64,000 bases of DNA, taken from contig NZ_KB217478.1 of the NCBI RefSeq assembly GCF_000331305.1, forward strand, positions 5,863,595-5,927,594, written 5' to 3'. Below, one piece after another: positions 1-64,000 of this stretch. This stretch comes from Calothrix sp. PCC 7103 (GTDB lineage Bacteria > Cyanobacteriota > Cyanobacteriia > Cyanobacteriales > Nostocaceae). The notes beneath the pieces were generated by a model. That model saw only the letters and a program-made list of their open reading frames with translations. It was not told the origin of the DNA and did not search any database. Position numbers and translations under genes: made by a program. Numbering within the stretch: position 1 is the stretch's first letter; each line of letters starts with the position of its first letter.

Positions 1-88
1 GCACGAGCGTCAAAAACAAGCCAAATATAAGCTGGTTAGAAAAGTTCGGAGAAATAGGTAACGGATTATTATTTTTTTGTGGTGCCAT
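1..88 (-). CDS. N-terminal fragment of an unidentified protein, cut by window edge
   Basis: An ATG at 88 opens a minus-strand frame that stays open for 29 codons to the window edge. The protein begins MAPQKNNNPLP and turns hydrophobic near residue 19 (LIFGLFLTLV), as in a membrane protein or a signal-anchored one. It starts about ten bases after the stop of the kinase gene upstream on the same strand, so the two may be cotranscribed. No clear ribosome binding site is visible. Too little is present to name a family. Confidence 0.5.
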   Translation of the reverse strand, partial: MAPQKNNNPLPISPNFSNQLIFGLFLTLV

Positions 89-97
89 GAGAAAATA

Positions 98-1642
98 CTA
101 TTGCCCAATTACATCATCTAATTGTGACGCTAGTGGTTGAGTTGTGTCCAAGATTTTTATATAACTTTTTTCACTTGCTGTAAATGCTTCTGATGATTGT
201 AGCTGCGATGACAGTAAATCAACTGTTGCATCCGCTATATCTCCACTGCGACTACTCAAGCGCGCGTTCAACACTTCTACAGGCGCCGTACATTGTATTA
301 TCTGTATTGCAATGCCTTTTTCAGTTGCTTTACTTATCGCATCACTACGTAAATTTACTCTATCATATTTTGCATCTAAAATTACTTTAAAGCCTTGTTT
401 AGCAAGCATTATACCCAAATCTACCAATCGAGCATAAGTCTTCTTCGTCATTTCTGGAGTGTATAATTCGCTGCTACCACGTTCATACAATCCCACACCC
501 CCTATATGCTTCCGTACTGCATCACTACGTAAATGAATGGCGCCAATTTGTTTAGCTAAATAACGAGCGGTCGTACTCTTACCAGACCCCGACACCCCTG
601 ACATCAAAATCAATCGTCCTGTTGAAGAGTGGGTATATTCCCATGCTTGGGTGTAATATGCTGCCGCAGTTTTTGCCGACTCTTCTTTTACAGCAGTAGG
701 AACACCTGGGTCATCAAGTAAAAATGAAGTAACCTTAGCACGTACATATGCTTGCCGACTCAAATACAAAGGCAATACCTGTAAACCTTCCCAGTCACCC
801 GTTTGTTCAACATAAGTATTTAAGAATATATTAGCTAAATCCTTACGTCCGCGTGCCTCCAAATCCATCACAGTAAACGCGACATCATACATTACATCAA
901 CAAAACGAAACGGCTCGTTAAACTCAATACAATCAAAGAGTAAAATTTGGTTATGCCATAAACAAATATTCCGCATGTGCAAATCACCATGACACTCACG
1001 GATAAAGTTATTAACAATCCGACTTTGGAATAGTTCGTTGCGTTCTGCAAAAAACTTATCAGTATATTGCTGGGTTTCGTCGAACTGCTGTTGTGTTTGG
1101 GGACCACCTATATAATTAACAGTCTGTTCGTAGTTTTGGTCGAACGCTTCACGAACTTTGGGTATGGTGCCAAAACCGCTAATATAGTCATTACTCTCAG
1201 TCTTACCGTGATAGCGAGCTACAACCCTGCCCAAATCTTCAATATACGACTCGTTTATTTTCCCCGACTCGAACATTGTGCTAAATAAACCATCATCAGG
1301 AAACTGTCGCATCTTTAGGGCATATTCTACAGCATCACCCGTGGCGCCGAATTGGTATCGCTCATTGCTTTGATAAATAGGCAAAACTTCCAAATACAAT
1401 TCAGCAGCACCTCTTTGGTTAAGACGCAACTCCTCATGGCAAAAATGGCGCCGTAAATCTAAAGTAGAATAATTCAAAAAGCCAAAATCCACAGGCTTTT
1501 TTAACTTATATACATAGTCACCAGTTAACAAAACATACGAACAGTGCGTTTGAATTAGTTGTATAGGTTCCTGACACGGATGTGGATAGAAACCCGGTTG
1601 TTGCATTTGCTGAATTAAAGCAGGAAGCGAAGTATCAGACAT
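98..1642 (-). CDS. Fusion of an aminoglycoside-phosphotransferase-like kinase and a P-loop AAA kinase
   Basis: This 514-residue protein has two parts. Residues about 30-330 are an APH/choline-kinase-like fold with the catalytic loop HGDLHMRN near residue 220 and the metal-binding stretch DCIEFNEPFR after it. Residues about 345-510 are a P-loop kinase domain of the zeta-toxin/gluconate-kinase type with Walker A GVSGSGKST near residue 350. The fusion is widespread in bacteria and its physiological substrate is unknown; small-molecule phosphorylation is inferred from the folds, and antibiotic resistance is not implied. The ATG lies in a short AT-rich leader after the rplY terminator. Both catalytic signatures look intact. 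Confidence 0.85.
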   Translation of the reverse strand: MSDTSLPALIQQMQQPGFYPHPCQEPIQLIQTHCSYVLLTGDYVYKLKKPVDFGFLNYSTLDLRRHFCHEELRLNQRGAAELYLEVLPIYQSNERYQFGATGDAVEYALKMRQFPDDGLFSTMFESGKINESYIEDLGRVVARYHGKTESNDYISGFGTIPKVREAFDQNYEQTVNYIGGPQTQQQFDETQQYTDKFFAERNELFQSRIVNNFIRECHGDLHMRNICLWHNQILLFDCIEFNEPFRFVDVMYDVAFTVMDLEARGRKDLANIFLNTYVEQTGDWEGLQVLPLYLSRQAYVRAKVTSFLLDDPGVPTAVKEESAKTAAAYYTQAWEYTHSSTGRLILMSGVSGSGKSTTARYLAKQIGAIHLRSDAVRKHIGGVGLYERGSSELYTPEMTKKTYARLVDLGIMLAKQGFKVILDAKYDRVNLRSDAISKATEKGIAIQIIQCTAPVEVLNARLSSRSGDIADATVDLLSSQLQSSEAFTASEKSYIKILDTTQPLASQLDDVIGQ

Positions 1643-1678
1643 AATATATTGATGCGTTTTTACAAACTTAGACAGCTT

Positions 1679-26573: not shown

Positions 26574-27383
26574 ATGAGTACTTACATTTCTAAGGGTTAT
26601 ATTCCTGAACGTTCGAGTATAAAATTAAAAACTTTTATGCATGTAAATCAGCAACTACAAAAATTAGCTGAAAAATATTATATATTAATGAATCTTGAGG
26701 AACCGTCTGATTCGGAGCTTAATCAGCTAGAAGAAATATTAAAGTTAGCCACGATTGATGAAGAGGTAAATGATTTACTTATTAAAATAGATGAACATAT
26801 TGCTATAGAAGCGGGTTTGATTCGTAATGAAGTCGCATCAAAATCTTGGTTAGCAAGTTTAGCTTTATTCATTACAGAGAAGCATTTCTCTCAACGGAAT
26901 AAAAAATTAGTCAATCTTTCATTACTTAGCGTTATGTCGGTAGGAACATTACTGTTACTTCAACAATGCGATAGTATGCAAGCAAAGATAACGTATAATA
27001 CATTATTTAATTATCACCAAGGTACGGCGCCTGTACACAAAAAAGAAACGAAGCAACAAAAAGATGTAGCATTAGAGACTTTAAGTATAAATGCTGATAC
27101 CGCAAGACCGAATGTGCCGCAAAATATAGCTTTGTTACAAAAACAACTAGAGTATGAATCGAAACAAATAAAATATGAACATCAGCAAATAAATTTTCAG
27201 AGGTGCCAGCTTAGTTTTGAAGCGAAACAAAAGCAAGCAGAGTCAAAGCATTTATTTGAACAAGCACAGCAATATTTGCAACAAGCTCAACAATGTAAAA
27301 AAGAATCTAAACAATCATTATCTTTATCAAAGCAATATGAAATGAAAGCCGAACAATCATTATCAATGGCTCAAGAAACATAA
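26574..27383 (+). CDS. Hypothetical single-pass membrane protein with Gln/Lys-rich coiled coil
   Basis: A 269-residue protein I do not recognise. The N-terminal 110 residues are helical and charged (LEEPSDSELNQLEEILKLA), a hydrophobic stretch near 122-140 (LVNLSLLSVMSVGTLLLLQQ) is a likely membrane helix or an internal signal anchor, and residues about 195-269 form a Gln/Lys/Glu-rich coiled coil (KQLEYESKQIKYEHQQINF). It starts at an ATG just after the composite palindrome and is followed by a repeat. Function unknown. Confidence 0.65.
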   Translation: MSTYISKGYIPERSSIKLKTFMHVNQQLQKLAEKYYILMNLEEPSDSELNQLEEILKLATIDEEVNDLLIKIDEHIAIEAGLIRNEVASKSWLASLALFITEKHFSQRNKKLVNLSLLSVMSVGTLLLLQQCDSMQAKITYNTLFNYHQGTAPVHKKETKQQKDVALETLSINADTARPNVPQNIALLQKQLEYESKQIKYEHQQINFQRCQLSFEAKQKQAESKHLFEQAQQYLQQAQQCKKESKQSLSLSKQYEMKAEQSLSMAQET

Positions 27384-27390
27384 TGAGTGT

Positions 27391-27427
27391 AAACCGGGTT
27401 TCTATCAACAAAGAAACCCGGTTTCTA
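27391..27427. repeat. AAACCCGGTTTCT element, short copy
   Basis: Cores AAACCGGGTTTCTA and AGAAACCCGGTTTCTA lie almost adjacent here (short ACAA spacer), making a single hairpin eight bases after the hypothetical gene. It may act as its terminator. Confidence 0.75.
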
Positions 27428-27469
27428 TTGAGAATTAGTCAACTCTTGAATTAACTGTTCAGGAGTTAT

Positions 27470-27596
27470 AAGTAGGTGGACGGGAAAATTTACCGCTATG
27501 TAACGAAATGTAAATCGGCTATAATCCTTTCACAGTATGCCTTTAGCGCTCTTAACCGGAAAACCCCAAGTGTGGTTTATTTCCACCCACCTACTT
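27470..27596. mobile_element. Candidate 127-bp MITE overlapping the PIN toxin stop codon
   Basis: The ends are inverted repeats: AAGTAGGTGGACGGGAAA at the left and the complement of AAGTAGGTGGGTGGAAAT at the right, 13 of 18 matching, perfect over the first ten. The interior has no coding potential. The right end supplies the last codons and stop of the PIN-domain gene. No clear target duplication is visible. Confidence 0.6.
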
Positions 27597-27971
27597 AATT
27601 CGCGGAGTAGTAACAGGATAATCCCTAGGGTTGCGAGTAATAATTGCATCAAAGTTATTGTTTACAGCAGTACTGTATTGAATAGCATCTTCAAAGTCTT
27701 TAAAGTTGCTGCTCAGTGCCATATTTATTGATGCGCTATCAACGTTAGCAATTTGACAGAACAAAACCAACTGCCTTAAGTAAGCAATTGTCCAATCTCG
27801 ACCTCGTGCTTTGCGGATAATATAATATAAATCACTAAAAGTCGAAGCTGAAATAAAACCTTCAACCTGTCTTTGTTCAATTAGTACTAAAACTTGTTCG
27901 CTTGTTTGCCAAAAAGGTTCGCGCTCAAGTGCATCATCCACGATAATGTTAGTGTCTAACAAAACTCTCAC
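27591..27971 (-). CDS. PIN-domain toxin (VapC-like)
   Basis: A 126-residue PIN-domain ribonuclease: MRVLLDTNIIVDDALERE carries the first acidic residue, FSDLYY the second, and FEDAIQYSTAV plus IITRNPRDYP the C-terminal acidic cluster and R-x-x-D motif. VapC-type toxins cleave RNA when free of antitoxin. It overlaps the upstream antitoxin by four bases (ATGA), typical of a cotranscribed pair. The last residues (RIK) and stop come from a MITE-like element, so the native C-terminus may have been longer. Confidence 0.88.
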   Translation of the reverse strand: MRVLLDTNIIVDDALEREPFWQTSEQVLVLIEQRQVEGFISASTFSDLYYIIRKARGRDWTIAYLRQLVLFCQIANVDSASINMALSSNFKDFEDAIQYSTAVNNNFDAIITRNPRDYPVTTPRIK

Positions 27972-28252
27972 AGATTATGTTTCTCCTTTAAAGCTTCCCA
28001 CCTTGCTTCATCTGGGTCAAAATCAGGAGGAACATCTGGAGCGTTTTCAAATAATCCCTCAAATGCTTTAACTTTAGATTTTCTTTTTGGTTTATCTAAT
28101 GGTGGGTAACATTTTTCGTTCGTGTAACTCGAACTGGGTTCAAGAGTTTGTAAGATAATCAATTCCACTTTACCAGGAGCAATATTCAACGGTTCGTTAA
28201 CAATTAGGCTTCCTGATTCGTCAATTGTTGCATTTAGCTTATAAGCTTGCAT
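27968..28252 (-). CDS. Antitoxin partner of the PIN toxin
   Basis: A 94-residue protein with an N-terminal beta strand region (YKLNATIDESGSLIVNEPL, resembling AbrB-like or other small antitoxin folds) and a disordered, acidic C-terminus (FENAPDVPPDFDPDEARWEA) that should wrap the toxin. It lies upstream of, and overlaps, the PIN gene, the usual antitoxin position. It is assigned mainly by that arrangement; the family is common in cyanobacteria. Confidence 0.8.
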   Translation of the reverse strand: MQAYKLNATIDESGSLIVNEPLNIAPGKVELIILQTLEPSSSYTNEKCYPPLDKPKRKSKVKAFEGLFENAPDVPPDFDPDEARWEALKEKHNL

Positions 28253-28778
28253 TCTTCTGTTCCTTTTTACTTATAGTATAAAATGTCCAGCATGAAATTG
28301 TTTTAGAGTTGTTTACAAATTATATTATTGATTCTATTTTTGTAAACCTACTGGTTCATGTCATAAGTTTTGGAAGGTTGTAGGGTGGGCACTGCCAGCC
28401 CTTTCAACGCGAACTAGTGAACTAGTGTAGCAAGGCAGATGGCAGAGGGCAGATGGCAGAAGTGAAAAGCCTTATGAAACATACGCTTTTTACTCTTTCA
28501 ACTGTACTACTATTTTAGTCAAGCTGCACTAGTAACATAAGTACTAAAAGCTTAAGTAATTGGTTGCTTAAAAATAAGGTATTTTTTATAAAATATTAAA
28601 TATACGAACTTTCAAAGTGGCAAGTATGTTTTCTTATTTATACATCTTATCAAATACGGTTTTATTCATAACTTTGTCTTAGATAAAACATCATATTTGA
28701 TAAATTGTTGACATGAAAAATATGCACGAAAATATTTTACGTGCGGTAAGCAGTTAAAAAATATTCTTTCTTTTATAA
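28253..28778. other. Intergenic region containing the left end of the IS element
   Basis: The first 140 bp hold the antitoxin promoter region and a TAGGGTGGGCACTGCC repeat fragment. The IS left end begins at 28395. Past it are short tandem GGCAGATGGCAGAGG units (28435-28463) and AT-rich DNA without a gene up to the transposase stop. Confidence 0.6.
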
Positions 28779-30277
28779 CTAACTTTGTGATTTCTTTTTT
28801 TGGTGGGTCTCTAAAAGTCGTGCGGTAGAAACATGGCGATGGTTACTATTAACTATTAAAGGTTCTCGCTTTTTTTTCTTACCTCTCGTTGCTTTTAAAA
28901 AACGTTTCAAATGTACACCATCTGCAAGTCGTTGTAGAAGTTCTGCTATTTGGTCAAGAGAATATGTACCAAACACTTCCCACTTTGGTGGTGGTATCGC
29001 AATCATCATCCCTCTATATATTCCTTGAATCTCATCTACCAAATAAAAATCAGATAAGCCAACTTCAATTTTATTAACTCCATGTACACTTCCCAAGGCA
29101 CCTCGTAAAGTCGCAAGTATATTGTATGCAACTAATGCCATTGAAAAAGAAAATAATGCAGCTTTGGGGTAGGCTAAAGTCTGAATTTCGCCGTTAAAAT
29201 TTTCAGTGACAGTTTGAAAAAGTGTTTCTATTTTCCAACGATTGCGGTATATTTCAGCAACTTCGACTGCGTTTGCATCGCTACTTGGTAAGTTAGTAAA
29301 AATCGCTATTTCCCATTCTTTATCTCGCGTCGGTACATTTAGCTTTACCAAAACCCGCCTGAGTTGTAGGATTTCCCCTTCATATGATATTTCTATTTTC
29401 TGCTCAAACACTTTTCCTGTTTCAGTTTCTCCTATATACTTTAATTCACTTAATTCTTTAAATCCTAATGAACCATGTTGGCGAATTACAAAAAACGCTC
29501 CTTTCAATATTATTGTATATAAGAACTTTGCTGTACAAAAGTTACGGTCTCCACACCAAATATCTTTCGGTTTAACTAAAGCCAGTATTTGGTCAAATGA
29601 CGCGCGCTCTTGAGCGTGACCGTCCTCAACTAATAAAACATCTGTTACTAACTTTGATGCTTGGTCTAATATTGCTATTGCTTTACCTGGTAGAGAAGAA
29701 GCTGCATAAGCGCGGATTGCATCTAGTCTATGGTCTGTTGCCGCAAGGCAGGTACCATCTACAAATTTCAGTTTATAACCTGTCAATAAATCTGCTTGTT
29801 CTCCACCCATTGCTTGAATTAAATACATTAAATCACTTGCTGTTTCTCGTAATAATGCTTGACTTACATTTAATTCAATTCCAGAGAGCTTGTTATATAA
29901 TGCGGTTGTACTTACTATTTTTTCTATTGCTTTCGCTCTATAAGCAGCATGGACTGACTTATGAATCCCACATACGACCAAACTCATTAAATCGACCTGA
30001 CTTGAAAACAATAAATCTTGCTGATATTGAACAGTCGCATGTGCCTCAAATATTTTATCCAAGCGTTCTGGCATGAAAATACACTCCATTAACACTCGTG
30101 CCATCACACTTATGGGACTTTCTTCTACAAATTGCTCAAAGACAGTAGATAACATTTTGATGCACCACAATTATTAATACTGTCAAGAATACCTTGAAGT
30201 CGTTCTTAATAATCAATACCAGGAGCGGCTTACAGGCGCCGTCCTAGTAGTGCATTAGTTCGCGTTGAAAGGGCTGG
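28395..30277 (-). mobile_element. IS4-family insertion element with 22-bp perfect terminal inverted repeats
   Basis: A perfect 22-bp inverted repeat begins CCAGCCCTTTCAACGCGAAC at 28395-28416 and returns in reverse at 30256-30277, with weaker similarity for about 12 bp further inward; outside these points similarity stops at once. Between them is one transposase gene. The 1.88-kb span is long for this family because about 380 bp of non-coding DNA lies on the transposase 3' side. No direct target duplication is seen, and the right end cuts into an ATP-grasp gene, so the insertion was followed by a deletion, or the true ends differ. Confidence 0.65.
28779..30155 (-). CDS. IS4-family transposase
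   Basis: The 458-residue transposase has the DDE core: the first Asp in KFVDGTCLAATDHR, the second in WCGDRNFCT, and the Glu in the signature YRNRWKIETLF, which fits the IS4 pattern Y-(2)-R-(3)-E. Length is full and no frameshift is seen, so it may be active. The C-terminus is lysine-rich (ATRGKKKKREP). The ATG at 30155 is preferred over a start five codons upstream. The coding region contains no GGCGCC, unlike almost every resident gene here. Confidence 0.9.
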   Translation of the reverse strand: MLSTVFEQFVEESPISVMARVLMECIFMPERLDKIFEAHATVQYQQDLLFSSQVDLMSLVVCGIHKSVHAAYRAKAIEKIVSTTALYNKLSGIELNVSQALLRETASDLMYLIQAMGGEQADLLTGYKLKFVDGTCLAATDHRLDAIRAYAASSLPGKAIAILDQASKLVTDVLLVEDGHAQERASFDQILALVKPKDIWCGDRNFCTAKFLYTIILKGAFFVIRQHGSLGFKELSELKYIGETETGKVFEQKIEISYEGEILQLRRVLVKLNVPTRDKEWEIAIFTNLPSSDANAVEVAEIYRNRWKIETLFQTVTENFNGEIQTLAYPKAALFSFSMALVAYNILATLRGALGSVHGVNKIEVGLSDFYLVDEIQGIYRGMMIAIPPPKWEVFGTYSLDQIAELLQRLADGVHLKRFLKATRGKKKKREPLIVNSNHRHVSTARLLETHQKKKSQS

Positions 30278-33060: not shown

Positions 33061-33139
33061 GCCCTCATTATAAATTTTAATAATCAGACCTAGTAGCTAC
33101 AATCATAAATAAAGAATTAAGAATATACATCTGACTTAA

Positions 33140-33167
33140 GTAAAGACGTGATTAATCATGTCTCTAC
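33140..33167. repeat. GTAAAGACGTGATTAATCATGTCTCTAC hairpin repeat
   Basis: An imperfect copy of the GTAGAGACG palindrome family, about 28 bp, ending close to the cobU stop at 33164; the stop codon lies inside it. Confidence 0.75.
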
Positions 33168-34833: not shown

Positions 34834-34930
34834 TATCTAGGGATAGAAATAAAGAATTAGAAGTTTTTCCGAAAAAACTCGGTTGGTAAGCTTCTGAATT
34901 TTGGTATAGATTAGCATCATCAGCACAAAT

Positions 34931-34960
34931 CGTAGAGACGCAGTGAACTGGGTCTTTACG
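34931..34960. repeat. GTAGAGACGCAGTGAACTGGGTCTTTACG repeat, degenerate
   Basis: A diverged member of the GTAGAGACG palindrome family, with arms still pairing over about 11 bp, in the gap before the glycosyltransferase genes. Confidence 0.65.
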
Positions 34961-35026
34961 ATGTAAATATGGAGATGTGTATCGCATCTTCGCGTTCGTT
35001 GGCTGTGCCACACACTTTACATTTTT

Positions 35027-35950
35027 ATGCCTGAAACGCTTATCTCAGCCATCATCTGTACCCACAACCGAGACACCTACTTGGGCGCCGCGATTGATAG
35101 CCTTGTCGCACAACAAACTACCGTTGGTTTTGAAGTTGTAGTCGTCGATAACGGTTCAACCGACCGTACTCGCGAAGTCGTTGAACAGCGACTTGCAGAT
35201 GCGCGCCTGCGTTACGTTTTTGAACCAGTTCTTGGTTTATCAGTCGCACGAAATACAGGCGCGTCATCATCCAGAGGCAAAATCCTAGCTTATCTGGATG
35301 ATGACGCCGAAGCTAGCGTTTCATGGTTAGACACTTTGCACTCAGCGTTTGAAGCTAACTCTAAACTAGCAATAGCTGGTGGTAAAGTTACGCTTATTTA
35401 TCCGCCAGGACAGGAGGCACCTGCATGGCTATCCCCTGGTTTGGCGGCTAACTTGGGTGCATACGATTTAGGCGATAAAGTTATATATATAGATAATCCT
35501 GGTTTAACTCCAAGAGGATTAAATTATGCGATTCGTCGCAGTTTCCTAGAGGAAGTTGGAGGTTTTGACGCTAATCTTGGTCGAGTCGGCAAAAAATTAT
35601 TGTCGAACGAAGAACTACAAATGACCGAGCTTGCCATTGGTCGAGGTTGGCAAGTTGCTTACCTTCCTGATGCACTAGCTGCACACAACGTCCAAACAGA
35701 ACGTTTACAACGCAGTTGGTTTTTTAGTCGCGGTTGGTGGCAAGGAATTAGCGAGTGTTATCGTGAACAGCTAGCAGGAAAAGCGGGCATTGGACAGTTA
35801 CAGCGTGGCAGCGAGCGATTTTTACGCGGTTTATATAAATCAGTGCAGTATATATCTGACCCAGCAGAGCGCTTTGACAAACTCGTATACGCTTATGGTC
35901 AAATAGGATATTTAAACGCCGCCCTTCAAGGTCTTCTATCAAAAAAATAA
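35027..35950 (+). CDS. Family 2 glycosyltransferase
   Basis: A 307-residue GT2 enzyme: ISAIICTHNRDTYLGAAIDS opens the GT-A fold, VVVDNGSTD binds the nucleotide, AYLDDDAEAS is the DxD metal site and GFDANLGRVGKKLLSNEELQ holds the catalytic acidic residues. There is no membrane span, so it should act on the cytoplasmic face on a lipid-linked acceptor. It begins a three-gene polysaccharide cluster (30 bp to the next gene). Donor and acceptor sugars are unknown. Confidence 0.9.
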   Translation: MPETLISAIICTHNRDTYLGAAIDSLVAQQTTVGFEVVVVDNGSTDRTREVVEQRLADARLRYVFEPVLGLSVARNTGASSSRGKILAYLDDDAEASVSWLDTLHSAFEANSKLAIAGGKVTLIYPPGQEAPAWLSPGLAANLGAYDLGDKVIYIDNPGLTPRGLNYAIRRSFLEEVGGFDANLGRVGKKLLSNEELQMTELAIGRGWQVAYLPDALAAHNVQTERLQRSWFFSRGWWQGISECYREQLAGKAGIGQLQRGSERFLRGLYKSVQYISDPAERFDKLVYAYGQIGYLNAALQGLLSKK

Positions 35951-35980
35951 TTACTAATTAAATAAATAACTGTAAATATT

Positions 35981-36943
35981 ATGTCTAATAAAATACCAGT
36001 TTCCGTCATTATCCCAGCTAAAAACGAAGAAGCTAATCTCCCCGCTTGTTTAGCTAGCTTACAGCGAGCCGATGAAATTTTCGTCGTAGACTCCCAAAGC
36101 ACAGATAAAAGTGCAGAAATAGCTACTAGTTACGGCGCCAAAGTCGTTCAATTCCACTTCAACGGACGTTGGCCCAAAAAGAAAAACTGGTCATTAGACA
36201 ATTTACCATTCCGCAACGAGTGGATATTAATAGTCGATTGTGATGAGCGCATTACCCCAGAATTATGGGATGAAATTGCTGTATCCATCCAAAATGACCA
36301 ACAATCTGACCAAAAATCTCAATTTGATGGTTTCTACCTTAACCGTCGCGTATTCTTCATGGGTAAATGGATTCGCCACGGTGGTAAATATCCTGACTGG
36401 AATTTACGTTTATTCAAGCATAAACTCGGACGTTACGAAAACCTCAACACCGAAGAAATCCGCAACACAGGCGATAACGAAGTTCACGAACACGTCATCC
36501 TAAAAGGGGAAGTCGGCTACCTCAAAAACGACATGCTTCACGAAGATTTTCGTGACTTATTCCACTGGTTAGAAAGACACAACCGTTATTCCAACTGGGA
36601 AGCGCGCGTTTACTATAATATCCTCACAGGAAAAGATGACGACGGCACAATCGGCGCCTCACTATTTGGTGATGCCGTTCAACGCAAACGCTTTTTAAAG
36701 AAAATCTGGGTAAGACTACCATTCAAACCCTTACTACGCTTCATTTTGTTTTACATCATTCAACGTGGTTTCAAGGACGGCAAAGCCGGTTACATATACG
36801 CCCGCTTACTAAGTCAATACGAATACCAAATTGGAGTAAAACTCTACGAATTACGTAGCTGTAACGGTCAACTAAACACAGCCAAAAAGTCAGCCAAGCC
36901 AGCCCCAAAATTCCAACAACAAGAAGCAGAAACAGCAGTCTAA
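35981..36943 (+). CDS. Family 2 glycosyltransferase (WaaE/KdtX-like)
   Basis: A 320-residue GT2 protein with VSVIIPAKNEEANLPACLAS, VVDSQSTDKSAEIA, the acidic metal motif ILIVDCDERITPELW, and the WIRHGGKYPDWNLRLFKH and LHEDFRDLFHWLERHNRYS blocks typical of the LPS core glucosyltransferase WaaE type. It acts in the cytoplasm on polysaccharide or lipid-linked intermediates. It sits 30 bp behind the first glycosyltransferase, probably in one operon. The last 20 residues are low-complexity. Confidence 0.9.
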   Translation: MSNKIPVSVIIPAKNEEANLPACLASLQRADEIFVVDSQSTDKSAEIATSYGAKVVQFHFNGRWPKKKNWSLDNLPFRNEWILIVDCDERITPELWDEIAVSIQNDQQSDQKSQFDGFYLNRRVFFMGKWIRHGGKYPDWNLRLFKHKLGRYENLNTEEIRNTGDNEVHEHVILKGEVGYLKNDMLHEDFRDLFHWLERHNRYSNWEARVYYNILTGKDDDGTIGASLFGDAVQRKRFLKKIWVRLPFKPLLRFILFYIIQRGFKDGKAGYIYARLLSQYEYQIGVKLYELRSCNGQLNTAKKSAKPAPKFQQQEAETAV

Positions 36944-36948
36944 CACCA

Positions 36949-36979
36949 TCTTGTGGAGCGGGCATCCCTTGCCTACCCA
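36949..36979. repeat. GGGCATCCCTTGCC repeat fragment
   Basis: CTTGTGGAGCGGGCATCCCT, then TGCCTACCC, half of the 75-bp palindrome family seen at 9986, in the 65-bp gap between glycosyltransferase and acetyltransferase genes. Confidence 0.6.
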
Positions 36980-37008
36980 CATACTTATAATAAATATTTA
37001 CTATATTC

Positions 37009-37602
37009 ATGATTAGTGACATCAAAAACCCAGAACAAATAAAATCATTTACCGATTTAAGCAAATATGACCAATCTTGGTTTGACCGAGGGCGGCCAAC
37101 TTGGTACATATTACTGTGGTGGTTCGTGCAAGCAGTAACTTTTCCCTTAACTCTCCATCCATTCAATGGGTTACGTTGTGCCATCCTACGATTATTCGGC
37201 GCCCGTATTGGTAAAAAAGTTCTAATTAGACCAACCGCACGTTTTACATATCCTTGGAAAGTAACAATCGGAGATTATAGTTGGGTTGGTGATGACGTTG
37301 TTTTTTACAGTTTAGACCATATAAATATCGGTAGTAACTGCGTCATCTCTCAAAAAAGCTATCTATGCACAGGTAGTCACAACATGAAAGACCCAGCATT
37401 TGGACTCAAAACTGCTGCCATTACTATTCATGATGGCGCCTGGGTTGCCGCAGACTGCTTTGTCGCACCAGGTGTAAATATTGGTACAAACGCAGTTATT
37501 GGTGCCCGTAGTAGTGTTTTTGCTAACATGCCCGCTGGACAAGTTTGTGTAGGTAGCCCATGTCGTCCCAGACACCCACGCATCAAAACTTCTAACTCCT
37601 AA
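37009..37602 (+). CDS. Left-handed beta-helix acetyltransferase (WcaF-like)
   Basis: A 197-residue hexapeptide-repeat acyltransferase close to colanic acid acetyltransferase WcaF. It has a helical N-terminus (FDRGRPTWYILLWWFVQAVT) and hexapeptide turns (IGDYSWVGDDVVF, IGSNCVISQKSYLCTGSHN, VAPGVNIGTNAVIGARSSVF); the His of TGSHN is the likely catalytic base. It should O-acetylate a sugar of an exported polysaccharide. Proteins of this type (HpsU) occur in the hormogonium polysaccharide system of Nostocales; that specific assignment is possible but not shown by this sequence. Confidence 0.88.
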   Translation: MISDIKNPEQIKSFTDLSKYDQSWFDRGRPTWYILLWWFVQAVTFPLTLHPFNGLRCAILRLFGARIGKKVLIRPTARFTYPWKVTIGDYSWVGDDVVFYSLDHINIGSNCVISQKSYLCTGSHNMKDPAFGLKTAAITIHDGAWVAADCFVAPGVNIGTNAVIGARSSVFANMPAGQVCVGSPCRPRHPRIKTSNS

Positions 37603-37612
37603 CTCCTAACTT

Positions 37613-39970
37613 TTATTCCCTTTTGCCGATTAATAAATAAGTCGTCATCTTGCCTTTACCCTTAACTTCTATTTCACCACGTTCTTCAAAGATAAATTTA
37701 TCACGCAAAAGCTTATATGTAGTTTCCGATACTTGTATCTTGCCAATCAAACCGTGTGATTCCATGCGGCTGGCTATATTAACAGTATCCCCCCAAAGGT
37801 CGTAGGCAAACTTTTTAATCCCAATTACACCCGCAACCACAGCACCACTGTGAATGCCAATACGAATATTAAAGTTCTGGTGATTATCATTATTAAAAAT
37901 TTTGATTGCGTTTTGCATGTCAAGTGCCATACAAGCTATGCAAACGGCATGGTCAAGGCGCCGTTTTGGTAAACCACCGACCACCATATAAGCATCACCA
38001 ATAGTTTTGATTTTTTCTAACCCATAATGCTCGCTCAGTCGGTCAAAGGCTGAAAAAATTTGGTTGAGTAAGTTTACAAGTTGAATAGCACTCAACTGTG
38101 ATGATATTTGTGTAAAACCAACTATATCAGCAAACAAAACCGATACATCGGTAAAATTCTCCGCGATGTTGCCTGGTTTGTTTTTAAGCCTATTCGCTAT
38201 CGTTTCTGGTAGAATATTTAATAACAAACGTTCGGTTTGTTCTTGCTGCTGACGTAGGGCTGTTTCTGTAGCGACCCGTTGCGTAATATTACGAAAAATA
38301 CCGCGTGTTGCCACTGGCTTATTATCAACAAATTTACAACTAATATTACCTTCTACAATAATTTTCTGACCCTCCTTAGTTAAAAACGCTGTTTGTACAG
38401 TATCAATTTTTTCACCTGTTAAAACTTTGCAAAAAAGTCGGCGACTATGTTGTTGATACTCAGGATGGATAATTTCAAACATATTTAAATCGACAATATC
38501 AGCTTCGCTATATCCCAACGTTTCACACCAAGCACGATTTACATATATAAACTGTCCATAAGAAGTTACTGACTGTATCAAATCATTTGCGTTTTCAAAT
38601 AAATCTCGGTAGCGTTCTTCACTTTCTAACAAAGCTTCTTCTGCGTGTTTACGCTTAATGAATTCCGCAATTTGATTACCAGTCGATACCAGTATTTGTA
38701 ATAAATCAACATCAGCGATTTGTACATCGCGACTAAAAAAAGTCATTACCCCAAACACTTGATAATCGTCCAGGATAGGAAAACCAAATGCACCTCGTAA
38801 TCCTGCCATTTTAGCAGCAGTCGCGCGCGTATCAATTTCAGACTGTATATCTCGTATCCATAATGGAGAGCGTGTTTCCCAAATTTGACCTGGTAAACCA
38901 ACACCACTTGTATATGTAGTTTGCCAACTTACTGACTTAAAACTACGTGCAGCAATAGTACGTGCAGACCACACTTCTACACATCTAAGAGTTGGATTTA
39001 CATATGAAGAAGCTACACGTTTATAAGGCGCCGTGATATGCTGGTTTGGTGTCCATAGTTCTCCTAAATCCCATCCTAAATTTTCGCAAATTGCCTGGAT
39101 AATTTTTGGTATCGTCACAGCAATACTCAAAGACTCTGATAATACACGAGTTACCGCAAATTGAACGGCATGATGCTGCTGTCTACGTCTACGAGTTGTA
39201 ACATCTCGACCGACATACACAATATCTTCTAAACCTTTAATTTTTTTCTCAACTACCGAACACGAAAAAGCAACTAATATTTTTTCTTTAGTTTTAGTAC
39301 GACAAATAACTTCTATATTTTGGAAATATTTTTGAAACAAATTAGGCTGTTGAATTCCTTTCTGTAATAAACTATTATCGTCGATCAAAATTGAAATCGG
39401 TTCCTCTATCAGTTCAGCTTCGCTATATCCAAATAATTCAGTTGCAGATCGATTCACCTTTTTAATAATGCCAAATTTGTTTGTAACTATAAAAGCATCC
39501 GCCATCGAAGTGATAATTTTGTCCATATAATTTTTATATGACATCAAAACACTCGATAGTAAATTTGCCTCTTTTATATGTTGCGAAAACCCTTGCTCTA
39601 TTAGCATCTTACTTGTAACATCTTCAATTAAAATAATCAATCGGGAAGCAAAATTATCTTCTTTTTCAGCCAGGATATAAACATCAATATATAAATCACC
39701 TTGATTTTCATTGCATCGGTGAACTCCTTCAATCTCAAATAATTCTTCTTCACCGTGCAATATAGATAACAAAACATCTTCCAAACCAATAAGTTCTGGA
39801 AAACCTTGTCGAACATCTTGACCGATAGTTACCTGTTCAGGGTTTTGAGCAAATTGCTCAACTCCTTCAGATGTACTAATAATATTAAAATTGGCATCCA
39901 CTTCTAAACGTTCAAATTTACGTGGTACCTGATATTTGTTAAAAATTCGGTTGAGTACCTGGTATTTCAT
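37613..39970 (-). CDS. PAS/GAF-regulated class III adenylate cyclase
   Basis: The 785-residue protein has sensory modules followed by a cyclase: PAS-like segments (to about 265), a GAF domain (about 275-440), another PAS (about 450-575), and a class III cyclase (about 600-785). Metal-binding aspartates lie in SVLFADIVGFT and IGDAYMVVGG; the substrate-specifying Lys (KTIGDAY) and Asp (DLWGDTVN) are those of adenylate cyclases. Product is therefore predicted to be cAMP. It is soluble, convergent with the acetyltransferase gene (10 bp apart). Confidence 0.92.
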   Translation of the reverse strand: MKYQVLNRIFNKYQVPRKFERLEVDANFNIISTSEGVEQFAQNPEQVTIGQDVRQGFPELIGLEDVLLSILHGEEELFEIEGVHRCNENQGDLYIDVYILAEKEDNFASRLIILIEDVTSKMLIEQGFSQHIKEANLLSSVLMSYKNYMDKIITSMADAFIVTNKFGIIKKVNRSATELFGYSEAELIEEPISILIDDNSLLQKGIQQPNLFQKYFQNIEVICRTKTKEKILVAFSCSVVEKKIKGLEDIVYVGRDVTTRRRRQQHHAVQFAVTRVLSESLSIAVTIPKIIQAICENLGWDLGELWTPNQHITAPYKRVASSYVNPTLRCVEVWSARTIAARSFKSVSWQTTYTSGVGLPGQIWETRSPLWIRDIQSEIDTRATAAKMAGLRGAFGFPILDDYQVFGVMTFFSRDVQIADVDLLQILVSTGNQIAEFIKRKHAEEALLESEERYRDLFENANDLIQSVTSYGQFIYVNRAWCETLGYSEADIVDLNMFEIIHPEYQQHSRRLFCKVLTGEKIDTVQTAFLTKEGQKIIVEGNISCKFVDNKPVATRGIFRNITQRVATETALRQQQEQTERLLLNILPETIANRLKNKPGNIAENFTDVSVLFADIVGFTQISSQLSAIQLVNLLNQIFSAFDRLSEHYGLEKIKTIGDAYMVVGGLPKRRLDHAVCIACMALDMQNAIKIFNNDNHQNFNIRIGIHSGAVVAGVIGIKKFAYDLWGDTVNIASRMESHGLIGKIQVSETTYKLLRDKFIFEERGEIEVKGKGKMTTYLLIGKRE

Positions 39971-40044
39971 TATGGTACAAAATAACTATTATGATTAATC
40001 TACTTCTGTGGCGCCAGTAAGTAAAGCTTATGTGTCTTTCTCCT

Positions 40045-42036
40045 TTAGCCAAGAACGACTTTATCGCGTCCTCGACGCTTTGCAAGATTTAGTGCTTTTT
40101 CAGCAGCTGTGACAATACTGTCAGGTTCAGTTTGTGCTGTTGGCACAATACTGGCAACTCCAATACTGACGGTAAGAACATTGGCAGGAAGTCCTCCGAT
40201 TCCAGGATAATCACAAAGTATTGCTAGTTCTTTAATTAAAGCGCGAATTTTCTCAGCAATACTAACTGCTGTTACAGCATCCATACGGGTAAGAACAGCA
40301 AACTCCTCGCCACTATAGCGCGCAACTAATACCGACTTGAATAACTCCCGCATATTTACAGTAGTAGATGCGTTCAAATTATACTTACTGCCATCATCAA
40401 CTAAATTGTTAACTACATTCTGAATTACCCTAGCAATTTGACGCAAACAGTCATCACCAGCGGTTTCTCCGTAGGTTTTATTGTAGATTTTGAAGTAGTC
40501 GATATCACATATTATCAATGATAACGGTGTTCTTTCATTCAGTGTACCTTTTTCGCTTTCACCAACATAACGCTGCCATTCAATTTGTAGGTAAGTATTA
40601 AAGTAACGACGAGTGGCAAGCTGTGTTAGTTCGTCAATACTCGAACGATATCGCAACTGCTGGTTCTCTCGTTCTAATGCTTCAACACGAGTAATCGTTG
40701 TTTTTTGGCTAAAATCAAGTTGAGGCAGAAAGTAAAGCCGAAATAATTCACATGTGCTCACCGCACGCTCACCTTCCAAATTTACTAATCCTAAACTTTC
40801 TAAACGTTGTGCTGCCATTGTTTCTAACTTTACCGGAGCAGAAGCCGTAATTACCTCATAAAAAGCTGCTGCAATTTCAGGTTGTTGACGTAACAATAAT
40901 AAATATTGACGCAAATATGCATCATAAATCCCTGTATCTGTTGGTGCCTGTTGTAGCAATTTCTGTAAATTCCCAGCTAGTCCTCCTTGTCCAACCAAAT
41001 AGTATAAAGCCAATCGAATTAAGTAAGGATGTCCTCCTACCATCGCCATCAAACTTTCAACTTCTACTCCGCTATGCCAATCCAAACCATGTAGCTTTGC
41101 TAAAACCTGAACTTCTTCTTTGGTAAACGGCTTTAGCTTGATTGGTAAACCAATATTAAACGGTGAATCAGTCAAACGCAACGGGATAATGATTTCCTCT
41201 GAATGCACAAGCACCAAGCGTAGTTTCTGCCAAACATCATGAGATTTTGCCTGCTCGTACCACGAACGTAACAAAGGTAAAAAATCTCTGGCGATTTCCG
41301 GATACTCTAGCACTATATCTACTTCATTCAGCACCAACACCACAGGATTTTTTAACGGAGCTAGCAAATAATCCTGAAAATAAATGGAGCAGCTAATTTT
41401 GCTACCCATATCTTTATCCCAATAATTATCTAACTCCGAAGAAATTCCTAACTCTCGACTTACGTTAGCGCAAAACCAGCGTAAAAACTTGTCAATATTG
41501 GTACATACTGCTGTGTCCGCTTGCTGAAAATCCAAACTCACAGTCTGATAACCAACATCGTTCGCATGTGCCAAAATTCTCAGTACCAGCGAACTTTTAC
41601 CCATTTTTTTGGCTGCTTTTATACATATAGCCCCTCCTGATTCGGTAATTTGAGTACGAGCAACTTCCTCAATCGGGGCACGATTAATATAAAATGGTGA
41701 ATCAAGTGATACTGGACCATTCGGAAATTCTAACGCTATAGGTGTTACTGGACGACTAAACAAAGCAATGGTTTGCTGCTGCTTCTTATTCAATGGGCGC
41801 GCTTCCAATAATTGACGAAAGTTGGATTTCTGAATTGGTTCCTCCCACAAATCGCTCAAAGATTGCCATAAAGAGGAAGCAACTTTTCTAACTCGTTCTT
41901 CTCCGTAGTGCGCTTCTAGTGCGATACTTGTATAAGTTTTACCTTCCCATGAAGCGCGCAACACAAGTTCTTGAAGTGGAGTTAAACCATTAGGAAAGCT
42001 TGCTTTTACTAGCTGTAAAACTTCTTCAATTGTCAT
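40045..42036 (-). CDS. Novel-architecture protein: HTH-like N-terminus, AAA-type ATPase and GGDEF domain
   Basis: A 663-residue protein. Residues 1-90 resemble the helical N-terminus of cyanobacterial AAA_35/vWA-MoxR-associated proteins (LTPLQELVLRASWEGKTYTS). Residues about 110-440 are an AAA/STAND-like ATPase with Walker A AAKKMGKSSL and Walker B-like VVLVLNEVD. Residues about 470-663 are a GGDEF domain (DELTQLATRRYFN, IICDIDYFKIYN); the active motif reads SGEEF, with Ser for the first Gly, a variant known in active diguanylate cyclases. Cyclic-di-GMP synthesis gated by ATPase conformation is inferred. No GGCGCC lies in the gene. Confidence 0.85.
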   Translation of the reverse strand: MTIEEVLQLVKASFPNGLTPLQELVLRASWEGKTYTSIALEAHYGEERVRKVASSLWQSLSDLWEEPIQKSNFRQLLEARPLNKKQQQTIALFSRPVTPIALEFPNGPVSLDSPFYINRAPIEEVARTQITESGGAICIKAAKKMGKSSLVLRILAHANDVGYQTVSLDFQQADTAVCTNIDKFLRWFCANVSRELGISSELDNYWDKDMGSKISCSIYFQDYLLAPLKNPVVLVLNEVDIVLEYPEIARDFLPLLRSWYEQAKSHDVWQKLRLVLVHSEEIIIPLRLTDSPFNIGLPIKLKPFTKEEVQVLAKLHGLDWHSGVEVESLMAMVGGHPYLIRLALYYLVGQGGLAGNLQKLLQQAPTDTGIYDAYLRQYLLLLRQQPEIAAAFYEVITASAPVKLETMAAQRLESLGLVNLEGERAVSTCELFRLYFLPQLDFSQKTTITRVEALERENQQLRYRSSIDELTQLATRRYFNTYLQIEWQRYVGESEKGTLNERTPLSLIICDIDYFKIYNKTYGETAGDDCLRQIARVIQNVVNNLVDDGSKYNLNASTTVNMRELFKSVLVARYSGEEFAVLTRMDAVTAVSIAEKIRALIKELAILCDYPGIGGLPANVLTVSIGVASIVPTAQTEPDSIVTAAEKALNLAKRRGRDKVVLG

Positions 42037-42537
42037 CAGTCATTTGGTTGAGAAAAGGTGATTGTAAATGGATTTGATAAGTTTTTATCTATGAACTTAA
42101 AAATGCTGCTAAGTATTTATGTAGCTTCAGCTTCTCGAACTGCATAGCGCTATTGTTCAAGAAACTACAGTAGGGTATTGACTTTTTGACTAAGTTATGA
42201 AACATTTGTCCTGGTTAGATTACAGACACTTACAAAACTAGCCAGACGAGTCTATCAATAGGTTTAATCTTATTTTCATGTAAACATGTATACTTCATTT
42301 TGCCATTACTTGGAACATATGGCGAATTTAATGTAGTCTTTTTTTGGTTTTTTTTTTTGAAGCGTGTGTGGAAAGTAACGAGATTGATTACATTTTTCAG
42401 TTTACGTCCAAACAACTTAAGTACACGATTGGTAATAGTCGTTAACAATTAATGCGCGCAGCAATGAGTGTAAGTTTACAGTCAGGGTGAATTGACCGCG
42501 TAGAGCTACAAGATACTTGAACCATCGTACAGCAGCT
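42037..42537. other. Intergenic region, no supported gene
   Basis: The 501-bp divergent gap between the AAA-GGDEF gene and the kinase-like gene has only a short Lys-rich minus-strand frame (42230-42448) without a family match, ribosome binding site or GGCGCC. I treat it as non-coding promoter DNA. Confidence 0.5.
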
Positions 42538-44040
42538 ATGCACATTGAAGAACCAGCCACCCATAATTTTATTGAGGTTGATTTTCAACCCCAACAATTA
42601 GCACCACTCCAAACTCTTTTAAAGAGCAACCAGTCATGTCAACTCTTACTAAGACAAGTCACTCAAATCATCGATGCAAACCCAGCATCAGAACTTGCAA
42701 CGACTTTACAAGCTATCGCTGAAAAGTTACGACAGTTTTTAGATACGCAACAAGTCGTAATTTATTCGATTCATGGCAACGACTCAACAATTGATCCAAA
42801 TTCTTTAATTTCCTCCCCTAACCTCAATCATACAAACAGCAATCACTCAATCGCTGTACCCATTTTTACACGTAACTTCAGTATGTCAGGCACCTCAACT
42901 TTGGAGCGTGTTCTTTGGGGAATGTTAATTGCGAATGGTTCTCATATGCTAAGTTGCGAGCAACAGGAATGCAGCATACTTAAATTAATTGCACGAGAAA
43001 TTAGTGTTGCAATTCAACAAGCTCAACTTTTAACAAAACTACAAGCTGAAACCGAAGCACGCAACCGCATCGAAACGCAAGCAAACCAATATTTACAACA
43101 AATCGACCATCAAAGCTTATATATTGAACAAATTCAGCGGCAGTTGCTCTCGAAAGAAAAAATAGCCACACTTGGAGAACTAATCGTCGATTTAGTCAAA
43201 GAAATTCAAGATCCTGTTGAATTTATCTTTAACACTCTATACTCTGCAAGTCAATACGCTGAAGATTTAATACAATTGCTCGAACATTACGAACATTACT
43301 ACCCAACACCCCCTGCGACACTACCTACTTTTCTTCAGTCTCTTGATACCAACTTTATTAAAACCGACTTTATTAAATTACTATGGTCGTTACGAGCAGG
43401 TTCAGAACAACTTCAAAAAAAAGTTTCTGCACTGCACAACTTTTCTGATGACTCACGTCAAATCAAGAAAATCAATTTAAATCATACAATCTCAGGCGCC
43501 ATCGCAATTTTAGAGCATCGCCTCAAACAACAGCAAAATCGACCTGGCATTGAAATCGTCAAAGAATTTGGAGATATTCCACTCGTCGAATGTCTACCAA
43601 GTGAGATAAATCAAGTTTTTATATCACTCCTCACAAATGCCATCGAAGCTCTAGAAGAACGCATGAACTATGACAGCTCTTTCATGCCCAAAATTTGGGT
43701 TAGCACAGAAATACTAAGCAGCCATTTATCATTACTAAGTAATACCTCGGTCTTATCTAATAAGCAAAAACAAAAAGTCTTAATACACATCTACGATAAT
43801 GGAACGGGTATTCTTCCTCATATACAGCGACGCATGTTTGAACCATTCTTTACAACAAAACCAATCGCTAAAAGTATGGGACTAGGACTAGCCATTAGCA
43901 AGCAAATTATTGAACAAAACCATCGTGGTAAACTTCGTTGCAACTCTCAATTAGGTCATGGGGCAGAATTTGTCATTGAAATTTGCACGTCTGGTAGACA
44001 TAATGCCGATATCAAAAAGCACGCTAATTTTTCAATATAA
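42538..44040 (+). CDS. GAF histidine-kinase homologue with Lys in place of the phospho-acceptor His
   Basis: About 500 residues: a GAF-like domain (about 30-165), a coiled coil, a HisKA-like dimerisation helix and a HATPase domain ([44 protein letters not shown]). Where its relative at 18302-20569 reads GVAHEINNP, this reads DLVKEIQDP: the acceptor is Lys221 (codon 43198-43200). The G2 box is SMGLGL, not GTGLGL. It therefore cannot autophosphorylate in the usual way but may still bind ATP or pair with another kinase. The ATG at 42538 is preferred to a TTG seven codons upstream. Confidence 0.85.
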   Translation: MHIEEPATHNFIEVDFQPQQLAPLQTLLKSNQSCQLLLRQVTQIIDANPASELATTLQAIAEKLRQFLDTQQVVIYSIHGNDSTIDPNSLISSPNLNHTNSNHSIAVPIFTRNFSMSGTSTLERVLWGMLIANGSHMLSCEQQECSILKLIAREISVAIQQAQLLTKLQAETEARNRIETQANQYLQQIDHQSLYIEQIQRQLLSKEKIATLGELIVDLVKEIQDPVEFIFNTLYSASQYAEDLIQLLEHYEHYYPTPPATLPTFLQSLDTNFIKTDFIKLLWSLRAGSEQLQKKVSALHNFSDDSRQIKKINLNHTISGAIAILEHRLKQQQNRPGIEIVKEFGDIPLVECLPSEINQVFISLLTNAIEALEERMNYDSSFMPKIWVSTEILSSHLSLLSNTSVLSNKQKQKVLIHIYDNGTGILPHIQRRMFEPFFTTKPIAKSMGLGLAISKQIIEQNHRGKLRCNSQLGHGAEFVIEICTSGRHNADIKKHANFSI

Positions 44041-62891: not shown

Positions 62892-62959
62892 GCATATGTA
62901 AATCAAATCGTACAGCTTCAGATTTAACAATCCTGATTTGGCTGCTAAATTTGAATAAT

Positions 62960-64000
62960 ATGCCGCAGCCAAAATTATGGAGATACATTGGCATGATGCT
63001 CTTTAATCAAATCATCGGCGCCTTCGCATTCAAAAGTACTACAGTCTTTACCGCTGTTTTACTGTCTATTAGTGGCGCCAGCATTCAAAGCACTGCATTA
63101 GCAACTAAAACGCAAGACTCATATTTGGCACAACTGGCGCCAGCAACAGAACGCACTAACAGTACAAATACTCTAACAAATATTGGTATAATTATTTGGA
63201 TATTGTTTCCAGTAGCAGCGCTCGCATCATTTTGGCTGCTGCGACGTGCAGCACTACGGGAAATTGTAAATAGGGCTACTTCGGAGGTTCAAGGGGTGAC
63301 AGAATTGCAAAAACAACTAGCCATTGTTGAAAAGCAAGCCGAAAAAGCGATTCAAAGAAATAAGGCAATAGTACACGAACTAGAACAGGAAGGAGAAAAG
63401 CTACGCAACAGCATTAAATTAGAAAAACAAAATTTACCGTTAGTTACCTCTGAGCTTTCTCAATCAAAAGATCAGTTATTATCACAGCTAGAAACAGTAA
63501 TTAAATCTGCTCAACAAAAAATAGATAATTTAGTAGATAATTTAGAAATACAATTCGAGACTCAACTTAATAACGAAAATTTAGGCGTCAAGCAAAAAGC
63601 TGATGAGACTTTAAAAAATATACTAAAATTAGAGTCTCAAATAGCATCTCATTTTTCTAGTTTGCAATTAGATGCTCAACAACAAAAGGACTTAGCAGTT
63701 ACCGATATAGCTAAATATAAAGATGAAGCCAAAAATCTAGTTATAACATTTCAATCCGATATACAGCAAGAAAAGAACTTAGCGACATCAGATATAGCTA
63801 AATCTAAAGATGAAATTAAATCTTTAATTTCCGGGTTACAATCTCAAGCTCAACAGCAACTTTTCCAAATTTCAGGAGAGTTACAGTTACAATATGCTTC
63901 TCAACTACAAGCTTTACAAACAGATACTAAACAAGAGCGTGACAAAATAATTCAGCATTTAGAAAAAATGCAGTCAGAATTTGCTTCTTTACTTTCAGAA
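62960..64000 (+). CDS. Coiled-coil membrane protein, cut by window end
   Basis: A plus-strand frame opens at ATG 62960 (MPQPKLWRYIGMMLFNQIIG) and runs open for 347 codons to the window edge. It has one hydrophobic N-terminal segment (to about residue 45), a second at about 75-95 (IIIWILFPVAALASFWLLRR), then a long Gln/Lys/Glu-rich coiled coil with repeated units (DLAVTDIAKYKDEAKNL and NLATSDIAKSKDEIKSL). Three GGCGCC sites lie in its first 180 bases. The C-terminus, which would name the family, is outside the window. Confidence 0.7.
   Translation, partial: MPQPKLWRYIGMMLFNQIIGAFAFKSTTVFTAVLLSISGASIQSTALATKTQDSYLAQLAPATERTNSTNTLTNIGIIIWILFPVAALASFWLLRRAALREIVNRATSEVQGVTELQKQLAIVEKQAEKAIQRNKAIVHELEQEGEKLRNSIKLEKQNLPLVTSELSQSKDQLLSQLETVIKSAQQKIDNLVDNLEIQFETQLNNENLGVKQKADETLKNILKLESQIASHFSSLQLDAQQQKDLAVTDIAKYKDEAKNLVITFQSDIQQEKNLATSDIAKSKDEIKSLISGLQSQAQQQLFQISGELQLQYASQLQALQTDTKQERDKIIQHLEKMQSEFASLLSE

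Follow-up and report, generated by a model that had tools for sequence, protein, structure and literature searches.

A genus-wide alternative to HIP1 in Calothrix sp. PCC 7103 and its relatives: the palindrome GGCGCC and a solitary methyltransferase predicted to act on it

The closest described case to the one reported here is that of Elhai (2015; PMC4390886). That paper gives HIP1 (GCGATCGC), the usual highly iterated palindrome (HIP) of cyanobacteria, a density of 14 per million in Calothrix PCC 7103, names GGCGCC as the alternative HIP of this strain and lists a value of 159 for CAGGCGCC. According to the same paper, exceptional HIPs occur sporadically and not in clades, a point used to argue that HIP1 is under selection; a second methyltransferase copy was thought perhaps critical; PCC 7103 carries a truncated CGATCG methyltransferase; and the methylation site was at that time known for no GRCGYC enzyme. 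Work on these enzymes (PMC2413257) identified the central C of GRCGYC as the base that M.BsaHI modifies, found HhaI to be blocked at GGCGCC modified in this way, and reports that HindVP, which is without a catalytic motif, showed no activity. In the RIMS-seq study (PMC8565308), GRCGYC is given as a 5-methylcytosine (m5C) motif of Haemophilus influenzae Rd that lay under the usual threshold. That GGCGCC stands in for HIP1 in Calothrix PCC 7103 has been in print since 2015; among the titles listed in our literature search, which covered little of the subscription literature, none but that of Elhai (2015) deals with GGCGCC in this role. How HIP words arose and what purpose they serve is unsettled. 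Here we analysed the GGCGCC palindrome in a 64,000-base stretch of Calothrix sp. PCC 7103 (hereafter the window; C7:5863595-5927594 of genome G000, which has 11,584,393 bases in 12 contigs), and followed the word and a solitary C5 methyltransferase, A1, through the genus and its family.

The word is distributed over the whole window as follows.

1..64000, no strand: GGCGCC palindrome, 96 copies by count, the first at 282 and the last at 63136

A first-pass annotation had estimated about 95 copies by eye where about four were expected. Our count came within one of this estimate, and the six positions cited as examples (282, 2273, 10531, 24519, 52422 and 63136) all read GGCGCC. With a GC content of 0.380, the window should contain 3.0 copies by base composition and 3.6 by an order-2 Markov model, a 27-fold enrichment. 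A maximal-order model expected 45.9 copies (2.1-fold enrichment); this model absorbs the signal because the word itself raises the counts of GGCGC and GCGCC. GGCGCC was the top palindromic hexamer of the window under each of the three models. The reversed control word CCGCGG, made of the same letters, had no copies in the window, nor had HIP1 or CGATCG, and GATC had 20. Sites were randomly spaced (coefficient of variation 0.97, Kolmogorov-Smirnov p 0.54, dispersion 0.93), and both predicted coding and non-coding DNA carried them, at 1.71 and 0.97 per kilobase (kb), respectively, in the 92 kb examined.

The annotation named two refuting results, a lack of enrichment outside the window and a common HIP1 elsewhere, and neither was observed. 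Genome-wide, we counted 17,704 copies of GGCGCC (1528 per megabase, Mb) versus 8 of CCGCGG, which places the word far above its expectation, at about 1.5 copies per kilobase. HIP1, which the annotation had not seen once, is indeed absent from the window; genome-wide it is rare and not absent, with 163 copies in 11.58 Mb (14.07 per Mb), the copies we examined lying in clusters, and it is nowhere near an abundant word of G000. The density of CAGGCGCC was 178 per Mb in 264 kb of this genome. The proposal that the window illustrates the replacement of HIP1 described by Elhai is supported; PMC4390886 describes this very case, most probably in the same strain.

To place the word phylogenetically, we used a family set of 217 genomes, 7 of the genus (g1), which comprises Dulcicalothrix desertica and strains that still bear the name Calothrix, and 210 others. 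The seven genus genomes are G000, Dulcicalothrix desertica PCC 7102 (G060), Calothrix sp. HK-06 NIES-2101 (G061), NIES-4105 (G062), the metagenome-assembled genomes C42_A2020_038 (G063) and FI2-JRJ7 (G064), and PCC 7716 (G065). GGCGCC was abundant in all seven, with 7,475-20,380 copies and 1150-1711 per Mb, all within the 1000-2000 per million typical of HIP-class words, versus 1-8 copies of CCGCGG per genome; the maximum in the other 210 family genomes was 111 per Mb. HIP1 was low in every genus genome (31-163 copies, 3.6-23 per Mb), as in other genomes that use another HIP. GGCGCC is thus an alternative highly iterated palindrome common to the whole genus (7 out of 7 genomes), and this genus-wide spread is new. 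Because all seven genomes carry the word, the premise that exceptional HIPs do not occur in clades no longer holds for GGCGCC.

In a sample of the class (n=388), the ratio of GGCGCC to CCGCGG reached 2213 in G000, and no other genome exceeded 47 (the value of G448). GGCGCC-rich genomes other than G000 were also rich in CCGCGG, and many exceeded 400 GGCGCC per Mb with many CCGCGG. We considered four of the sampled genomes as further users of GGCGCC and rejected them: the pieces read of G448, G519 and G512 showed these to be HIP1 genomes, and 14 kb of G561 looked HIP1-like. One genome of another family, G435 (GC 0.55 in 44 kb; L117-L120), had 9489 GGCGCC in 3.8 Mb versus 304-343 in three other sampled genomes of its genus, and CGGCGCCG stood about 30-fold over composition there; G435 is a possible second alternative HIP case. 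GATC was scarce in samples of the seven genus genomes (9-135 in 47-263 kb). It occurred 3 and 7 times in 40 kb each of two low-HIP1 relatives (G194 and G184), and no HIP of their own was evident in those 40 kb.

We measured the conservation of the word in DNA aligned with G000: 120 kb from G064, 24 kb from G061, 119 kb from G065, 136 kb from G060, 105 kb from G062 and 27 kb from G063. Alignment pieces shorter than 200 or 400 bases (depending on the test), gapped columns and positions at which fewer than three further species could be aligned were dropped. Part of this material lies in the window:

32628..42000, + strand: stretch with long congener matches, 93-95% identical to G060, G061, G064 and G065, 84% to G062 and 79% to G063

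GGCGCC sites of G000 were intact at 210 out of 225 positions in G060, 166 out of 196 in G064, 178 out of 198 in G065, 36 out of 39 in G061, 146 out of 185 in G062 and 27 out of 45 in G063. For other all-GC hexamers the intact fraction was 0.67-0.72 across the four close congeners, 0.48 in G062 and 0.34 in G063. Among hexamers with at least 25 instances, GGCGCC ranked first in conservation in G060 (1/1729) and G062 (1/1567), second in G061 (2/162) and seventh in G065 (7/1653) and G063 (7/206).

A codon test separated this conservation from that of the proteins. We took codons whose amino acid was conserved and whose third base lay inside the word, derived the expectation from the same codons elsewhere, and left out TGG together with any codon that had fewer than five occurrences. 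In G062, an 86%-identical congener, 283 out of 318 codons were unchanged versus 177.4 expected (z 12.1). The counts were 55 out of 77 versus 28.0 in G063, 385 out of 396 versus 323.5 in G060, 337 out of 351 versus 281.5 in G065, 321 out of 346 versus 282.5 in G064, and 66 out of 70 versus 58.0 in G061. GGCGCC is therefore maintained beyond protein constraint.

The annotation had suggested that a methyltransferase matching GGCGCC would be present. A PF00145 profile search gave 15 matches in G000 and 74 in its six congeners; 16 of the 74 stayed outside the clustering, namely 13 short fragments and three rows representing two full-length genes (in G062 and G060). Clustering left two families of C5 methyltransferases present in all seven genomes: a 370-amino-acid enzyme (L014) and A1 (L009).

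G000:C7:8004469-8005407: A1, C5 methyltransferase of 313 amino acids, PF00145 E 5.9e-66

Homologues of A1 occurred in 7 out of 7 genus genomes at 81-99% identity, and a RuBisCO-like gene adjoined A1 in each. In 6 out of 7, A1 lay between this gene and an SLH/GHL10 gene; in G064 the SLH/GHL10 match was only partial. The arrangement in G061 was broken by a contig end, with the RuBisCO-like gene followed by the first 85 residues of A1 (98% identity), the other end of A1 opening another contig as a fragment and an intact, 83%-identical copy elsewhere. Outside the genus, 58 of the 210 family genomes had a match to A1 at E <= 1e-30, 57 of them at 55-73% identity and G055 at only 32-36%. The protein contains PPCQ, ENV, QxRxR and GNAVP segments, which we take to be the catalytic motifs of C5 methyltransferases. 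Its target segment is 55-74% identical to 14 aligned non-genus sequences, seven of which are labelled as adjoining an endonuclease, and retains the residues RR[GA]..TI..NRP. In our reading of the alignment, the recognition residues discussed in PMC2413257 appear to be kept. By homology, A1 is predicted to be an m5C methyltransferase of the BsaHI/HgiDI/HindVP type, with the target GRCGYC, of which GGCGCC is one form. All seven genomes therefore carry an enzyme that, by homology, could act on the word; the suggestion of the annotation stands insofar as a solitary methyltransferase is present throughout the genus, and falls insofar as homology makes it a GRCGYC-type enzyme and not one specific for GGCGCC.

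Several other observations concern these enzymes. Homologues of A1 at 53-64% identity were found in records from Chloroflexi, Poribacteria, Planctomycetaceae, Olsenella, Clostridia and Helicobacter (L203, L205-L209, L211, L213, L214, L217), pointing to a wide horizontal spread of the enzyme type. A second C5 methyltransferase, of 658 amino acids, lies near A1 in G000 (L100:7672-9648) and is followed by an open reading frame (ORF) of 435 amino acids (L100:9656-10963), an arrangement also present in G060 and G061; the 435-amino-acid ORF had no Pfam or NCBIfam match and is a candidate for an unrecognised restriction endonuclease. At G000:C7:7965087-7965596 (L013), a C5 methyltransferase ORF whose PF00145 match covers just the first half of the profile is perhaps the truncated CGATCG methyltransferase of Elhai's account of PCC 7103.

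We examined 53 loci of A1 homologues, 12 from the genus and 41 from outside it (39 distinct, two having been fetched twice). Directly upstream of the homologue, 28 out of 41 non-genus loci (26 out of 39 distinct) carried a related ORF, mostly of 350-380 amino acids; the three that were tested all matched PF09519 (RE_HindVP). By contrast, none of the 12 genus loci had an upstream ORF of this endonuclease type. A HindVP-type endonuclease was matched in 42 of the 217 family genomes, including 40 of the 58 non-genus carriers of the methyltransferase (several copies being broken or partial), versus 0 out of 7 genus genomes at E <= 1e-10. The genus thus appears to have no cognate endonuclease of a GRCGYC restriction-modification system. 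The median density of GGCGCC was 0.73 per Mb in genomes with both enzymes (n=40) and 5.45 per Mb in those with the methyltransferase alone (n=18; p=0.0018, kinship uncorrected), while genomes without any methyltransferase match had 5.07 per Mb. These medians indicate that the word is avoided where the nuclease is present and is not avoided where the nuclease is gone, the huge enrichment being confined to the genus. Four genomes of genus g26 (G076-G079), which have the methyltransferase, no endonuclease match and full HIP1, had 20-43 GGCGCC per Mb and 9-42 control words per genome; they possibly represent an intermediate state.

We then examined how the word is lost, counting changes seen in one species only. 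Within GGCGCC, C>T changes affected the central C in 41 out of 1034 cases, the last C in 4 out of 691 and the penultimate C in 1 out of 806, and none of the 1034 central positions showed a transversion. A first spectrum had likewise placed C>T at position 3 in 62 out of 90 single-base departures. C>T at the central C is thus the main route by which GGCGCC is lost. The contrast persisted at wobble sites (28 out of 421 at the central C versus 3 out of 320 at the last C, p 5.7e-5), and the last two C changed to T four-fold less often than ordinary non-CG C (5 out of 1497 versus 755 out of 54263, p 1e-4). Elsewhere, C>T was seen at 70 out of 2915 other GCG and 168 out of 8999 other CG sites. The central C exceeded other GCG when all sites were counted (41 out of 1034 versus 70 out of 2915, p 0.012) and did not do so at wobble sites (28 out of 421 versus 56 out of 1065, p 0.32). 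The first impression of a plain deamination hotspot is thereby weakened: at wobble sites the rate is ordinary for the GCG context, and the unusual feature is the suppression of all other changes in the word. We also considered a base-calling artefact: central-base changes were synonymous in 38 cases and not in 18, where 83 and 123 were possible, and so look mostly real. The simplest reading is that all change in the word is suppressed and that extra mutation is added at a methylated central C. When changes were polarised, GGCGCC showed 19 losses and no gain; with just 12 qualifying ancestral one-off words, gains were hardly visible.

Taking these results together, we consider it probable, though well short of assured, that GGCGCC is a genus-wide alternative HIP tied to a solitary GRCGYC-type C5 methyltransferase whose nuclease partner has been lost. 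We infer the activity and GRCGYC specificity of A1, its part in causing the enrichment, the maintaining force and the order of events, which most likely ran as follows. The ancestor of the genus would have carried a GRCGYC restriction-modification pair, as many relatives do. The endonuclease would then have been lost and the methyltransferase kept, HIP1 would have decayed, and the formerly avoided GGCGCC would have risen to about 1.5 per kb and been held there since. A1 would methylate the central cytosine on each strand (GG-mC-GCC), and some force acting against substitutions within the methylatable word would maintain it. This force could be selection that favours methylated sites for their part in repair, replication or nucleoid organisation, or else a repair bias such as the GmeC-directed mismatch repair of Elhai. 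The stronger version of this account, in which an orphaned methyltransferase turned its own avoided target into the commonest and most constrained palindrome, stable since the genus ancestor, we put forward tentatively, at slightly less than an even chance.

Several results weigh against the main account. An A1-type enzyme is not sufficient for enrichment, as the 18 non-genus carriers without an endonuclease match had at most 42.6 GGCGCC per Mb. The correlation of enzyme and word comes from one clade and is thus perhaps one event. The second methyltransferase copy that Elhai thought perhaps critical had no match in G060 or G063, and G060 has the second-highest density of GGCGCC. The conservation rank of the word in G064 was only 64/1661. 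In addition to the ordinary rate of the central C at wobble sites, the central-C changes were unevenly distributed among lineages (22 out of 288 in G000 and 14 out of 252 in G064, versus 4 out of 226 in G065, 1 out of 234 in G060 and 0 out of 34 in G061), which limits the deamination reading to two lineages. A search for PF03852 (Vsr) found no match in any of the seven genus genomes and so offered no Vsr-type explanation of this difference.

Four other explanations were weighed. In the first, the ratchet of Elhai, repair bias acts alone: mutations giving rise to GGmCGCC become fixed through GmeC-directed mismatch repair, without any function of the word itself. It predicts m5C at the central C, which is biochemically established for M.BsaHI and which the C>T pattern makes suggestive in G000 and G064, and it predicts GGCGCC in preference to GACGTC, which occurred 0-4 times in each of the seven genus samples (47-263 kb). 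A set point of about one site per kilobase would, however, seem to even out the spacing, which is random; no recent gain stands against the 19 losses, subject to the few qualifying starting words; and the nicking enzyme of the ratchet is hypothetical. We regard this explanation as rather unlikely on its own. Less likely still is that the word is selected for a function of its own, for instance as the binding site of a nucleoid, segregation or DNA-uptake protein, with methylation incidental. The synonymous-site constraint, seen at divergences of up to 20%, fits such a function, and neither random spacing nor presence in non-coding DNA contradicts it, but this explanation leaves open why a solitary methyltransferase found in 7 out of 7 genus genomes versus 58 out of 210 others should have the replacement word as its predicted target, and why C>T changes differ so much within the word. 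That L014 is responsible seems very improbable: in the clustered sequences no C5 family besides A1 and L014 was common to all seven genomes, but L014 also occurs in 167 out of 217 family genomes, 160 of which have no high-density word, and hence does not discriminate. Composition or glycine-alanine codon pairs as the source of the word can be dismissed, since 59 out of 141 sites do lie in the GGC-GCC frame but 60 are in one of the two remaining frames and 22 fall at the edge of a predicted gene or beyond it, CCGCGG is vanishingly rare beside GGCGCC, and the same codons are far less conserved elsewhere.

The annotation had also proposed that missing GGCGCC flags foreign DNA. The two longest GGCGCC-free stretches of the window, and the genes in them, are as follows.

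40010..43495: longest GGCGCC-free stretch, 3485 bases
40045-42036, - strand: AAA_35/GGDEF ORF in the longest gap
42517-44040, + strand: HATPase (kinase-type) ORF in the longest gap
27026..30235: second-longest GGCGCC-free stretch, 3209 bases, GC 0.355, no GATC
28779..30170, - strand: DDE_Tnp_1 transposase ORF of 463 amino acids inside the second-longest gap, PF01609 E 1.8e-17

The AAA/GGDEF and kinase-type genes of the longest gap give no sign of foreign origin by family alone. As the set of gaps in the window fits random placement, a gap of a few kilobases is by itself weak evidence of foreign DNA, and to this extent the proposal needs qualification. It holds in the HIP1-rich DNA examined. 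Five places of G000 were chosen for the presence of HIP1 in the first part of the HIP1 list, and four had runs of at least four HIP1 sites within 3 kb of each other; these four runs, 24.7 kb in total, contained 6 GGCGCC versus 37.7 expected (P 2e-10). The HIP1-rich, GGCGCC-poor islands (L114, at G000:C7:2862001-2882000, L111 and L112) carry a cyanobactin-type cluster (YcaO, ThcOx, PatG), an amidase/abhydrolase group and a PAS histidine kinase, and are probable recent arrivals from cyanobacteria that use HIP1. In such islands, the word in use can help to date and source recently acquired genes.

A genus with another constrained word removes Elhai's no-clade argument and offers a natural comparison. 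If the stronger version of our account is true, HIP words would be long-term, methyltransferase-driven features that are constrained in their own right and not passing accidents, and a lineage's word would be decided by which solitary methyltransferase stays. As a number of its members have strain numbers of the PCC or NIES type, their methylation could be determined directly on cultured material.

In comparison with known systems, HIP1 and GGCGCC are alike as GC-rich palindromes occurring about once per kilobase and linked to an orphan methyltransferase (for HIP1, Elhai 2015); they differ in the word itself and in the type of methyltransferase, and HIP1 is reduced to 3.6-23 per Mb in this genus. 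Other alternative HIPs described by Elhai (2015), rCCGGy in Oscillatoria PCC 10802 and GCsGC in Cyanothece PCC 7822, likewise combine low HIP1 with a high GC-rich palindrome and a fitting methyltransferase, each from a single genome. Relatives of A1 adjoin a PF09519 endonuclease, which places A1 in the family of the BsaHI/HgiDI/HindVP systems (GRCGYC); the genus departs from these systems in that the endonuclease is matched in 0 out of 7 genomes and the predicted target is the commonest palindrome and not avoided. The nearest case is Elhai's own, Calothrix PCC 7103/D253, which agrees with ours in the word, the HIP1 density and the GRCGYC-type enzyme, and very probably concerns the same strain. 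A second methyltransferase copy, part of his account, is unmatched in two of our genomes. Where that account had one genome and fragments of a second strain (D253), the word now extends to 7 out of 7 genomes of the genus, and to the 2015 description we add a solitary methyltransferase at a shared locus with no nuclease found, the measured constraint on the word, the spectrum of its loss and its depletion in HIP1 islands.

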